Shown in pieces: positions 47,328 through 53,269 of a stretch of 64,000 nt of DNA. Source of the DNA: Alteromonadaceae bacterium BrNp21-10. Its GTDB lineage: Bacteria > Pseudomonadota > Gammaproteobacteria > Enterobacterales > Alteromonadaceae. A program made the translations under genes and the position numbers. Position 1 is the stretch's first letter. The number at the start of each line of letters is the position of its first letter. The notes under the pieces were generated by a model, which ran no database searches, was not told the DNA's origin, and saw only the letters and a program-made list of their open reading frames with translations. The stretch spans positions 62,001-126,000 of the forward strand of contig JAUHQD010000012.1 of assembly GCA_030418115.1 (NCBI GenBank), written 5' to 3'.

Positions 47328-48467
47328 CTATTCAAGCGGCACTTTTTCAAACGTCAGTCCCTGTACAGGGATCTCAATTTTCAATACTTCATGCTGTTCT
47401 GGACTAAGATAAAAAATGTATGAAGGTGCGCCACCGGTTAAATGCACCACATCCATCGGCTGTTGTAGCCCGTCCTTATCGACCACAGTGGTTTCTGCTA
47501 AGTGCAAGCGGACGCGTTTAACCTCTATATTCTCTGCGTCAAACCAACGAAAATACTGATCCTGCTGTTGATATTTTAACGCGCCGACGGTGGCAAAAAT
47601 AGTTTCTTTTAAGTAACTAAAAGGCGGTAACCATTGATCCACATCTACCTGTCCTTGAGTCAAAAAGTACGGCCGTTGTTTATGAGAGTGACCGGTAACA
47701 TGATTGTCGGCGAAAGTCATTTGCACATCTACCGCTTTGCCATCGCTACCACTCATACGAATTTGTAAGGGTAACAAGGTGGTTTTATTTACGAAGGTTT
47801 TAACGATCATATTAGTGCGAGTGGCGGATGACATGGTAATTTGTGTAATTTCAATTTGTTCGTCTTTGACCACCCTATCTAGTATTTGATAGCCAATGTC
47901 TTCACCGTTCAACAACACCCGATAGCGGGATTTTTCTGAAGGTAAACGACTGAGATCAAACATCAGTGGCGCTAACTCACCTTCAGGAAATGGCGGGAGT
48001 GGTTCAACTGTAGTAATGATGCTTTCATCAACAAAGGTCACCGCGAAAAGATCACCGTATTGATTTTCGTCAATGCTACTGGCTTGACCACCGACTAAAT
48101 GTACCAATTGCGGGATGGTGTTACTGTGACCCACCACCAACGCATTACGTTTTTGTGAGCGTAATATTTTTGCCAACACGCTTAAATCTTGGGTATCGTA
48201 AAACGCCAACATCTGATCGAGCTTTTTTACTAAAGGTTGCGCGGTTTGCTGACTACGTTTGGTTTGTGTGCTGTAAATGTCCTGAATATTTTTATCAAAG
48301 AGATAATCGGCGAGTGCTTGCGCACGGTGTTGGCCTTTCTTGGTAAGAGCCGGATCACTGTCGGTAGTCGATATTTTTTCGGCATGACGGCTAAAATATA
48401 AGGTGTATTCTTCCGCTGCCATGCATTGCAATGACATTACACATAACACGCAATAGAGTAGCCTCAT
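47328..48467 (-). CDS. Secreted histidine phosphatase fused to a C-terminal domain
   Basis: 379 residues. The signal peptide (MRLLYCVLCVMSLQCMA) is followed by a phosphoglycerate-mutase-like domain with the RHG-type motif FSRHAEK, KRSQQTAQP and VVGHSNTIPQL (residues 22-155). The C-terminal ~220 residues (YRVLLNGEDIGYQIL..., LLPLQIRMSG, VHLTGGAPSYIFYL) look like a separate beta-rich DUF3108-like domain. Probably periplasmic dephosphorylation of an unknown substrate. ATG 48467 has AAGGG 6 nt upstream. It lies just upstream of ppk1, on the same strand. Confidence 0.75.
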   Translation of the reverse strand: MRLLYCVLCVMSLQCMAAEEYTLYFSRHAEKISTTDSDPALTKKGQHRAQALADYLFDKNIQDIYSTQTKRSQQTAQPLVKKLDQMLAFYDTQDLSVLAKILRSQKRNALVVGHSNTIPQLVHLVGGQASSIDENQYGDLFAVTFVDESIITTVEPLPPFPEGELAPLMFDLSRLPSEKSRYRVLLNGEDIGYQILDRVVKDEQIEITQITMSSATRTNMIVKTFVNKTTLLPLQIRMSGSDGKAVDVQMTFADNHVTGHSHKQRPYFLTQGQVDVDQWLPPFSYLKETIFATVGALKYQQQDQYFRWFDAENIEVKRVRLHLAETTVVDKDGLQQPMDVVHLTGGAPSYIFYLSPEQHEVLKIEIPVQGLTFEKVPLE

Positions 48468-48554
48468 GAACATCCCTTATATTCGTTGCTGGAAGAAAAT
48501 CTTAAGGGATTTATTGGCTTAGGTAAACAAACTGTTGTTTTTTTATGCACTGTA

Positions 48555-48583
48555 AAAACAAAAAAGCCGCTGAAATAGCGGCT
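48555..48583 (-). terminator. Terminator of der
   Basis: On the minus strand AGCCGC / GCGGCT with a seven-base loop runs into TTTTTTGTTTTT. The first arm overlaps the der stop codon. Confidence 0.85.
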
Positions 48584-50048
48584 ATTTATGTTGGTTTTGG
48601 TTTCGCTTGCGTTGGCTATATTTCATCAAACGGTGACGATTACGTTGCTGTGTCAGACTTAATTCGCTCTTATCCGCTTCAAATGGATTGGCCCCTTCAC
48701 GGAACTCCACTTTAATCGGCGTACCCATAGCTTTTAACGACTTGCGATAATAATTCACCATATAGCGTTTGTAGGAATCAGGTAAGTCATTCACCTGATT
48801 ACCATGGATGACAATCACTGGTGGGTTATAACCACCCGCATGAGCATATTTCATTTTAACGCGGCGTCCACGTACCATTGGCGGATTATGATCGTCCTGT
48901 GCCATTTCCATAATGCGTGTCAACATCGCCGTACCTACACGGTTGGTGGCCGACTGATAAGCTTCCTGTACTGAATCAAACAGGTTACCCACGCCAGTCC
49001 CGTGCAATGCGGAAATAAAGTGTATGCGAGCGAAATCAATAAAGCCTAAGCGGCGGTCTAATTCACGCTTAATATCTTCTTTAACATGGGACTCTAAACC
49101 ATCCCATTTATTCACTGCGATAACTAGCGAACGACCAGCGTTAAGCACAAAACCCAACAAGCTTAAATCTTGATCGGTAATACCTTCGCGGGCATCGATA
49201 ATCAATAACACCACGTTGGCTTCTTCAATGGCTTGCAAGGTTTTGATAATGGAAAACTTTTCGACAGCACCGGAAATGTTCTTACGACGGCGCACACCGG
49301 CGGTATCAATCAGCACATATTCACGCTCATTGCGCATCATCGGGATAAAAATACTGTCACGAGTGGTACCAGGTTCGTCATAAACTACGACCCGCTCTTC
49401 ACCTAAAATACGATTGGTTAAAGTAGATTTTCCCACATTGGGTTTACCAACAAAGGCCATTTTAATTGGCAAAGCTTGCAAGCGTTTAAGCTGTTCTTCG
49501 GCATCTTCTTCGGTTTCGATTTTTTCCGGCTCAACGATATGCATGTCAGGGAAATGATCAACCAGCGGCTCTAAACAAACATCTAATAATTGCAATACAC
49601 CACGGCCATGGGCGGCAGCGATTTGGTAAACATCACCTAAGGCTAAAGCAAAGAATTCGGCACTTTCACTGTCGCCATCAATACCATCGACTTTATTCGC
49701 TACCACATGTACGGTTTTATTTTGCTTACGCAAGTGATTAGCAATGGCTTGATCGGCTACGGTCACACCGGCACGGGCATCCACTAAAAACAACACGACG
49801 TCGGCTTCTTCAATGGCCAGCAAAGATTGCTCTGCCATTGCCGCATCAATGCCTTCTTCATCGCCGCTGATACCACCGGTATCCACCACAATAAATTGAC
49901 GACCTTCGTATTTTGCCTGACCGTATTTACGGTCGCGGGTTAATCCCGGGAAATCGGCTACCAGTGCATCCCGGCTGCGTGTCAGACGATTAAAGAGTGT
50001 CGACTTGCCCACATTCGGACGACCAACCAAAGCAACAACAGGTAACAT
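48582..50048 (-). CDS. der: Ribosome assembly GTPase Der (EngA)
   Basis: 488 residues with two tandem GTPase domains: G1 [12 protein letters not shown] and NKVDG in the first, [19 protein letters not shown] and NKWDG in the second, plus a C-terminal KH-like domain ([15 protein letters not shown]). Acts in 50S ribosome maturation. Last gene of the minus-strand cluster, with a terminator on each side. Confidence 0.97.
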
Positions 50049-50061
50049 AACTTTTCCTAAC

Positions 50062-50092
50062 TAAAAACGGCCCGGATTGGTTACCGAGCCGC
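50062..50092 (-). terminator. Terminator-like hairpin between bamB and der
   Basis: On the minus strand CGGCTCGG / CCGGGCCG (one wobble) with an eight-base loop, then TTTTTAG. It could separate der from the bamB transcript. Confidence 0.55.
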
Positions 50093-50152
50093 TAAATTAA
50101 CTGACTAACAATTATAGCTGCAAAACATTCAAACTGGTGTTAACAACCAAAT

Positions 50153-51359
50153 TTAGGGAGTCTCAACAGCAAATACAATCCCATCACGAGTTTGAGTATA
50201 GAGCACTTTGCCATCAACCACCGGTGACGCATAAATGCTTTCATCTTCATCGTCATCACCTAAGGCCATACGCGCCACTATTTTGCCGTCACTTTGGTTT
50301 AACCAATGAATAAAACCAAATTTATCACCCACCACCAAGTATTTGTCTACTGGTGCGGCGCCGGTTAACAAACGCTGTTGTAAACTGGATTGACTCCACA
50401 ACTCGACGCCATTTCGACGATCAAGGGCATAAACTACGCTGTCATTATCAACCAAGAACAGATTATTAGCGTCCGAGCTTAAACGACGATAAGACTTATA
50501 TTCCCGCTTCCAGATAATACGGCCACTGCGTATTTCCACGGCAGCTAACGTGCCATCGAAAGAGACCGTGAACACCGTTCCACCTAAAATTAATGGCTGA
50601 ATATCGATATCGGCAATACGATCTAACTCGGTCGCACCCGTAGGTGAAGCAATCGCTTGTTCCCACGCAATTTGACCAGTTTCGGCAATAGCGACTGCCA
50701 ATTTACCGGTGGCCGTCCCTACCATTACACCACCAGAAGCAATAGTAGGCTGAGATACACCGCGAAGTGACAATGGTGGTACGTCAGATTCATAACGCCA
50801 TTTTTCTTCACCATTCTCAGCATCAAGAGCAAATAACACACCTGAAGAGGTATTCACTACCACTAAACCAGCATCTACCGCAGGCGAGGCAATAACTTCA
50901 CCTTTAACTTCAACTTGCCAAAGGACATCGCCAGTTGTTTCATCCAGCGCTAATACTTCGCCATTTTCAGTGCCTAAGAAGACTTTTTGGTAAGCCAGAA
51001 CTAAACCACCAGCGACCTTGGCTGAATCAGATTTTTTGCTAAAAAAAACCACTTTCATAATTCTTATCGACATGGGTTTTCCACAAGATTTTGCCAGTTG
51101 TCTGATCGTAGGCTTTTATTACACCATCACGATTAGCAGCAAACACCTTGTTGTAGCCCACAGCAGGCTTAAGACGAGAAAAGAAATGGGCAACGCCTTC
51201 ATCTAAATCATCCTGCCACAATATTTTGCCGCTAAATTCAGCTTCAATGGGTTTTAGTAGACGAATTTTTAATTCTTCTTCATCGGCAAACCAACCGGAG
51301 AAGGTACTGCAGCCACTTAAGCTAAGCAGCAGTGGAATAACAACAAACAGTTTATTCAC
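50153..51359 (-). pseudogene. bamB: Outer membrane assembly lipoprotein BamB, frameshifted
   Basis: The first frame (51359 leftwards) encodes a lipoprotein start (lipobox LSLSGC) and the first propeller blade (VIKAYDQTTGKILWKTHV), ending ESGFF and a stop. The second frame continues with FSKKSDSAKVAGGLVLAY and seven further quinoprotein-type blades (GDVLWQVEVKG, GEEKWRYES and others). The break is at a run of eight Ts (51041-51048, minus strand); seven would restore one ~400-residue BamB. BamB is the accessory lipoprotein of the BAM complex. It may be a true mutation, a slippery site or a sequencing error. The surrounding order (hisS-yfgM-bamB-der) is intact. Confidence 0.88.
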
Positions 51360-51368
51360 AATAGTCCC

Positions 51369-51989
51369 TTATGCGCTAACAGCAGCGAGATTATCCAACT
51401 TAACTTGTAGCAATGGACTGCCAGCATTTTTCTCAATGGCTAAACTATAAGCCGCGCGAGCTTGGTCAATTTTACCTTGACGGCTATACACATCACCTTT
51501 TACTTCGGCAACGTTAGCCGCAAAGGATTCATCGTTGATACCATCTAAGGTGGCCAACGCTTCATCATATTGCTGTTGTTGAATTTGAATGCGGGCTAAA
51601 CGTAGGCCCACAATATTCTTCAAGTTAGTGTCTGTGGCGTGGTTGTTAGCCCAGGTTAATTGCTTAGCAGCTTCAGCGTAATCTTTTACGTCAACGGCTT
51701 TTTTAGCTAATTGCAATGCAGCGAACAATGAATAGCTACTGTCGTTATTAGCTTCAATAAACTGGCTGACTTTGGAAAAACCATCATCTGAAGCATCCAA
51801 CGCTGTAATAACTTGCTCGTATCCTTTAGAAGTGGCTTCTTTGGCTTGGATAGCTTGCTCGTTATAATAACGCCAGCCCCACAATCCACCTAAACCGATA
51901 ACGGCACCAATTACGATGGCAACACCATTCTCTTTCCAGAATTGCTTGATGGCTTCGACTTGTTGTTCTTCAGTGCTAAATTGTTCCAT
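51369..51989 (-). CDS. yfgM: SecYEG-associated TPR protein YfgM
   Basis: 206 residues. Cytoplasmic N-terminus TEEQQVEAIKQFWKENG, one helix (GVAIVIGAVIGLGGLWGW), then periplasmic TPR-like repeats (residues 50-200). In E. coli it is linked to the Sec translocon and periplasmic chaperones. Its start overlaps the hisS stop by one base (TAATG). Confidence 0.93.
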   Translation of the reverse strand: MEQFSTEEQQVEAIKQFWKENGVAIVIGAVIGLGGLWGWRYYNEQAIQAKEATSKGYEQVITALDASDDGFSKVSQFIEANNDSSYSLFAALQLAKKAVDVKDYAEAAKQLTWANNHATDTNLKNIVGLRLARIQIQQQQYDEALATLDGINDESFAANVAEVKGDVYSRQGKIDQARAAYSLAIEKNAGSPLLQVKLDNLAAVSA

Positions 51990-53269
51990 TATTTTTCTAC
52001 CTCTGTACGTAACAACGGGATGAGCGCATCCACTGTCATTGAAATTTGTGGTTTATCTTCACGTAAATATTTAACGGCAACTTGCTGTTGGCTGGCTTCA
52101 TCATCACCAATCAGCAATGCCCATTTAGCGCCACTAGCATCAGCACGCTTCATTTGTTTTTTAAAGTTACCACCACCGCAATGGCTTAACACCCGCAATG
52201 TTGGCAACGCGCTGCGCAATTGCTCTGCGGTTTGTATCGCAAAAACGGCAGCATTGTCACCCATAGCGGTGACATAAACATCTACGGAGTCGGCAACTTT
52301 ATCAGTGAGTTCCAGTGCTTCTAACATCAGCACTAAACGCTCCATGCCCATGGCAAAACCCACACCGGGTGTACCTTTACCGCCGAGATGTTCCACTAAA
52401 CCATCGTAACGACCACCGGCACAAACCGTACCTTGAGCACCTAAACTACTGGTAACCCATTCAAATACGGTGCGATTATAATAATCCAAACCACGTACCA
52501 AACGCGGATTAACCCGGTATTGGATACCTAACTGGTCTAATCGTTCACATAATCCAGAAAAATGTTCAGCAGACTCGTCATCAAGGTGATCGAGCAAACT
52601 GGGCGCATCCACAATAGCCGCCTGCACATCAGGATTTTTACTATCTAGTACCCGTAATGGATTACTGGTTAAGCGTTTTTGACTGTCTTCATCGAGCAAG
52701 TCGTAACGGGCTTGCAAATACTCGACTAGGGCAACTTTATAGTTTTCCCGAGCCTGATTAGAACCGAGGGAATTTAATTCCAAGGTAACATGCTCGGCCA
52801 TACCTAATTTTTGCCACAGACGGGCTGTCATTAAAACCACTTCGGCATCAATGTCTGGGCCATTTAAGCCAAACACTTCCACACCAAATTGATGAAACTG
52901 ACGGTAGCGACCTTTTTGTGGACGTTCGTGACGAAACATCGGCCCCATGTACCACAAACGCTGCTGTTGGTTATACAACAAACCGTGCTGATTACCAGCG
53001 CGTACGCAGCTGGCGGTGCCTTCAGGGCGTAGCGTTAAACTGTCGCCGTTACGATCGTCGAAGGTGTACATTTCTTTTTCGACGATATCAGTGACTTCAC
53101 CAATGGAACGTTTAAACAGGTCGGTACTTTCTACCACCGGCATACGGATTTCCTGATAACCATAACTGGCAACCAAGTCACGAATACCGTTTTCGAGGTA
53201 TTGCCACACGCCGGTCTGGCTTGGCAAACAGTCGTTCATCCCACGGATAGCTTGAATTTGCTTACTCAC
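51989..53269 (-). CDS. hisS: Histidyl-tRNA synthetase
   Basis: 426 residues, class II. Motif 1 region IRMPVVE, motif 2 [18 protein letters not shown], histidine-binding [15 protein letters not shown] and motif 3 [11 protein letters not shown]; then the anticodon-binding domain. Charges tRNA-His. Start ATG at 53269. A terminator-like hairpin separates it from ispG. Confidence 0.97.

Follow-up and report, generated by a model that had tools for sequence, protein, structure and literature searches.

A single-base frame break at a run of eight Ts in bamB of Alteromonadaceae bacterium BrNp21-10

In the +1 programmed frameshift of RF2 (prfB), the P-site codon can re-pair one base forward directly before a stop codon, which is UGA at the shift site, and the gene has a strong internal Shine-Dalgarno sequence. 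The frame break in bamB described here shares the possible re-pairing, but its stop codon is UAG, no strong internal Shine-Dalgarno sequence accompanies it and the site is not conserved. Homopolymer slipped-strand phase variation, as in Bordetella, Neisseria and Campylobacter, also involves a mononucleotide run within a coding sequence in the accounts available; unlike the phase-variable genes, bamB encodes an assembly factor rather than a surface antigen, and only a single length of its tract, T8, is known, from one genome. Citrobacter rodentium tssM1 is, like bamB, an envelope gene with a stop codon near an A/T run, whose full length can be reached by slippage; as far as the available text goes, slippage in tssM1 is demonstrated, occurs at A11 by the addition of As and is reported for a Yersinia tssM too (PMC4256274), whereas the bamB tract is T8, needs a deletion and is not conserved in the relatives seen. 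A further parallel is found in the drift of M.HaeIII, where a one-base indel in a run of eight may be phenotypically rescued, although there the run is A8, the gene is carried on a plasmid and selected for function, and the bypass was measured according to the accessible part of the report (PMC3812077), while that of T8 in the chromosomal bamB is putative. Finally, the GeneTack singletons, labelled 'pseudogene' or 'hypothetical pseudogene / error', resemble bamB in occurring in one genome only, in having homologues that validate both sides and in lacking a conserved site. We found no difference between them, in the portion of that study at hand (PMC3711429), and bamB, which is a usually conserved gene broken at a T8 run.

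The window analysed here, a stretch of 64,000 nucleotides with a GC content of 43.3%, belongs to contig C4 of the BrNp21-10 genome (4,217,876 bp in 33 contigs). Both the window sequence and the list of open reading frames place the coding strand of the bamB region on the minus strand, and the features of the region are collected in Table 1.

Table 1. Features at and around bamB, in window coordinates
Feature	Coordinates	Strand	Description	Profile match or relatives
bamB locus	50153-51359	minus	two ORFs in different frames	
bamB 5' part	51039..51359	minus	106 aa, GTG start, first propeller part, TAG right after the T-run	TIGR03300 positions 2-100; NF008351 positions 7-99
Mononucleotide run at the frame break	51041..51048	minus	T8 on the coding strand (AAAAAAAA, A8, on the plus strand)	
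bamB 3' part	50153..51073	minus	306 aa, frame one base further on, first ATG at 51073	TIGR03300 positions 92-376
yfgM	51369..51989	minus	206 aa, intact, upstream of bamB	beside bamB in 7/7 relatives compared
der GTPase	48582..50048	minus	488 aa, intact, downstream of bamB	beside bamB in 7/7 relatives compared
ORF between der and the ppk/ppx-like ORFs	47328-48473	minus	381 aa, apparent signal peptide (by eye)	PF00300, residues 25-86

The initial annotation described bamB as split by a single-base shift in a run of eight Ts, and two frames do meet at this run. Instead of one uninterrupted reading frame, BamB is distributed over two ORFs, the first of which ends in ...GGT TTT TTT TAG, and the BamB similarity of the second starts about at the tract. 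On TIGR03300, the 106-aa part scores 67 bits and the 306-aa part 344.1 bits. Over the 885 bases that start at the tract, 30 stops interrupt the zero frame, the TAG directly after the tract among them, and none interrupts the shifted frame. The split is therefore real in the sequence as given. When the tract is crossed by reading the four-letter word TAGC as S, a single protein of 401 aa is obtained, which scores 498 bits on NF008351 (cut-off 423; residues 4-400) and 417.1 bits on TIGR03300 (cut-off 285.2; residues 4-398). These are the NCBIfam equivalog models for BamB, and the match spans nearly the whole of each; in addition, residues 8-398 of the product can be aligned with solved BamB chains. 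The claim that removal of one T rebuilds a BamB of normal length is accordingly borne out. The N-terminus of the 5' part is hydrophobic and ends in an LSGC lipobox, which by eye reads as a lipoprotein signal peptide, and no signal peptide was seen by eye in the 306-aa part.

The neighbours of bamB, which we take to be der, yfgM and hisS (yfgM from gene order and sequence), are each encoded in one frame and align nearly end to end with those of seven relatives. All four genes were found together in each of the seven loci compared, out of 12 retrieved. Between der and ORFs that by eye resemble ppk/ppx lies the gene of the 381-aa protein, whose N-terminal segment matches the histidine phosphatase family and whose C-terminal half has no Pfam match. 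BamA is present in the genome in one frame. The idea that a second BamB copy renders the loss harmless was rejected, as a profile search of the whole genome found no second BamB above the TIGR03300 cut-off. Six other matches to this model lie below the cut-off: one is the bamB 5' part, three fall in a frame of 611 aa and two in one of 744 aa.

We then considered whether the break is shared by relatives. A family search covered 246 genomes, of which 244 have a BamB match, and frames were read for the 150 matches listed (149 relatives and BrNp21-10 itself). All 149 relatives among the matches listed encode BamB in a single open frame that spans 395-454 aa and has no stop inside, and BrNp21-10 has an open frame of only 320 aa in the same search. 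The two genomes with no BamB match at the threshold used, G072 and G096, are 85 and 87% complete. Two matches each were obtained for BrNp21-10 and for G085, a 7.5-Mb genome in which the second BamB match is also significant.

For the tract itself, 70 loci were reduced to 58 distinct relatives, three of them distant, by dropping duplicates, and the stretch from -18 to +24 nt of the aligned site was compared. The site lies in a variable insertion where the alignment is loose, and there the longest T-run is 7 in four relatives, 6 in eight and 5 or less in 46, with none having 8; the runs of seven encode Gly-Phe-Phe, in frame. Neptunicella marina S27-2, which is of the same genus and the nearest relative among the genomes compared, has no T-run at the site. 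A comparison of tract length in relatives, which the initial annotation had suggested, thus yields at most seven Ts in 58, in frame, and no conserved tract. Taken together, the break appears to be private to BrNp21-10 among the relatives seen (149 in the matches listed, and 58 loci for the T-run), and the site seems prone to T-runs, with BrNp21-10 alone reaching eight among the 58. Neither break nor slippery site is conserved in these relatives in the manner of a programmed frameshift. Homopolymers of 8-9 were also observed inside the stop-to-stop frame of intact bamB in three relatives: an A8 (L033) and a T9 (L040) near the 5' end, which may precede the start codon, and a G8 (L041) near the 3' end.

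The sequence downstream of the break shows no sign of age. Both halves had been called well conserved, which holds for the 3' part (70.1% amino acid identity to N. marina BamB) and less so for the 5' part (47.5%). Identities of the 3' part to six outgroups are 69.4, 66.0, 65.2, 65.5, 64.7 and 66.6%, compared to 65.3, 61.5, 60.3, 60.3, 60.9 and 62.4% for N. marina BamB, i.e. the broken gene is the nearer of the two in 6/6 comparisons (for Bowmanella, 69.4 vs 65.3%). A gene long freed from selection would show the reverse pattern, and hence there is no sign of an old break. The short 5' part gives a mixed picture, with the window sequence nearer the outgroup in four of the six comparisons. Between the 3' part and N. 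marina, dN is 0.233 and dS is 1.97, which is near saturation, so that dN/dS is only a rough guide. A disabling change is thus found without further decay, as in a recent pseudogene: the 3' frame has no further stop and no rate increase is seen. This pattern is compatible with a very recent change, with an error or with continued use via bypass.

The reading that we favour, with about an even chance or slightly better, is that a very recent one-base slip in the mononucleotide tract broke bamB in the sequenced lineage or culture. Slipped-strand replication would have altered the length of the tract by one base, in a variable insertion where the Gly-Phe-Phe motif gives runs of T6-T7 in several relatives. 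With eight Ts, translation would stop at the UAG just past the run and leave a 106-codon lipoprotein stub. The 306-codon ORF carries no export signal, and therefore the stub and the remainder could not come together in the periplasm; a functional two-piece BamB is thought unlikely, the export signal being seen, by eye, only in the first piece. The cell would then be BamB-null or, where U8 now and then slips or a +1 shift occurs at UUU-UAG, BamB-low. Since E. coli can do without bamB, a BamB null is plausible here. We infer that the eighth T is real DNA and that its effect is tolerated, and the same applies to the size of any bypass. It should be noted that a consensus error would look identical. 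Moreover, the MutS and MutL frames look intact, so that a mutator background, which was considered as a source of the slip, is not seen: each of the two lies in a single open frame, with a match along the whole length of MutS and, for MutL, matches over 1-361 and 471-551 of 555 positions.

A consensus or assembly error is the strongest competitor and a substantial, if somewhat less probable, one. Here, bamB would be intact in the true genome, with seven Ts, and the eighth would be an artefact of homopolymer calling. The break changes a single base at a homopolymer, the gene cluster is otherwise intact, no sign of relaxed constraint is seen, and bamB is intact in the 149 relatives among the matches listed, all of which would fit such an artefact. 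As a singleton one-base break at a homopolymer, it also belongs to a group of cases that the authors of GeneTack attribute to sequencing errors or recent indels; for singletons whose frameshift is backed by homologues, sequencing errors, and not genuine indels, are what they expect in the text available (PMC3711429). This expectation favours an error in bamB as well.

What speaks against an error is the quality of the rest of the assembly. In 494.6 kb sampled from the genome, we counted 58 A/T runs of at least 8, two of which are too near an edge, leaving 56 testable. By a loose test that counts bamB via its 3' frame, 28 of these are in a long open frame and 28 are in none. The bamB tract alone shows a frame break (1/56) and none of the other 55 does, in a test that demands 60 open codons on either side and would miss breaks near gene ends. 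Shorter runs were examined in contig C4 (134.6 kb), where 26 pairs of ORFs on the same strand lie close together or overlap; the junction carries a homopolymer of 6 or more only in the bamB pair, and no other split pair there is linked to a homopolymer. Furthermore, when 63 N. marina ORFs were compared with C4, 18 matched at an identity of at least 45% and only BamB was split. A genome full of homopolymer errors is therefore rejected for the sampled part. The clean survey counts against a platform with frequent homopolymer errors, yet leaves room for an isolated one; as the sampled part of the assembly is clean apart from bamB, we place a real slip slightly ahead of a consensus error. Of the three readings put forward by the initial annotation, sequencing error and recent loss fit everything found, and the third, a slippery tract that switches or tunes BamB, gained no positive support.

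An unlikely alternative is that T8 is real and leaky, such that a tolerable level of BamB arises when transcription slips at U8 or when the Phe-tRNA shifts by +1 at UUU-UAG, with no selection of T8 as a regulator. After a +1 slip, the P-site UUU before UAG would re-pair perfectly with UUU and the next codon would enter the BamB frame. By contrast, -1 ribosomal slippage on the U-run was rejected, since worked out by hand on the sequence it yields a third frame and not BamB. A stimulator of the RF2 type was looked for upstream and downstream. The duplex of the upstream stretch with the anti-Shine-Dalgarno sequence reaches only -3.0 kcal/mol, a value matched or bettered in 41% of windows along the gene, which argues against a Shine-Dalgarno-like stimulator; a comparison stretch that we take to be RF2-like gave -10.6 kcal/mol in the same calculation. 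The downstream fold, calculated without pseudoknots, is ordinary (-13.4 kcal/mol vs -13.3, s.d. 3.1, for mononucleotide shuffles), and no Rfam match was found in 50000-52000. Hence neither an upstream Shine-Dalgarno sequence nor, among folds without pseudoknots, a downstream structure marks the bamB tract as a programmed frameshift site.

Rescue at homopolymer runs has precedents. In the available parts of the two reports, a laboratory gene tolerated frame-shifting indels in its A8 run through bypass (PMC3812077) and Citrobacter tssM1 was rescued by slippage at A11 (PMC4256274); the former makes a low-level bypass in bamB possible. Restoration of BamB at T8, however, requires that the RNA lose one base or gain two, and in E. 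coli transcriptomes only three RNA deletions (<1%) had their start inside an unbroken homopolymer run, a setting in which insertions are the commoner event, according to the accessible text of PMC5574713. The run is also short: frequent slippage would call for an A/T length of about 9 or more, a figure taken from the portion of PMC1088944 at hand, where many bacterial genomes show selection against such runs within coding sequence at a length of 9, and the bamB run is 8. In word-matching literature searches, many of whose matches were unrelated, no bamB frame switch was recognised from the titles and abstract starts of the papers listed.

That tract length serves as a programmed switch, i.e. 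a phase-variable or recoding device for BamB, is very improbable: several relatives do have a T-rich Gly-Phe-Phe stretch near the corresponding position, but these relatives are in frame with at most seven Ts, N. marina has no run there, the downstream structure is ordinary with no Rfam match, and the conserved break site that GeneTack requires for programmed shifts, in the text available (PMC3711429), is lacking. The proposal of a switching or tuning tract has little in its favour, with T8 and the break absent from the relatives examined, no RF2-like Shine-Dalgarno sequence, no unusual fold and a short run of eight. We give equally little credence to a bolder version, in which a real T8 has become fixed in the species and BamB is supplied, in a low but set amount, through +1 slippage at UUU-UAG or through RNA deletion at U8; the break would postdate the split from N. 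marina and throttle outer-membrane assembly.

Neither a real slip nor an error changes what is known, and an error would amount to an annotation warning only. An efficient bypass, if true, would mean that BamB is dosed by recoding, and only that outcome would make the case interesting. If the break is real, as a recent slip in the tract would have it, bamB would add one case to those in which a one-base slip removes or weakens an envelope gene that is usually conserved, and BrNp21-10 would be a natural bamB mutant of a marine bacterium.
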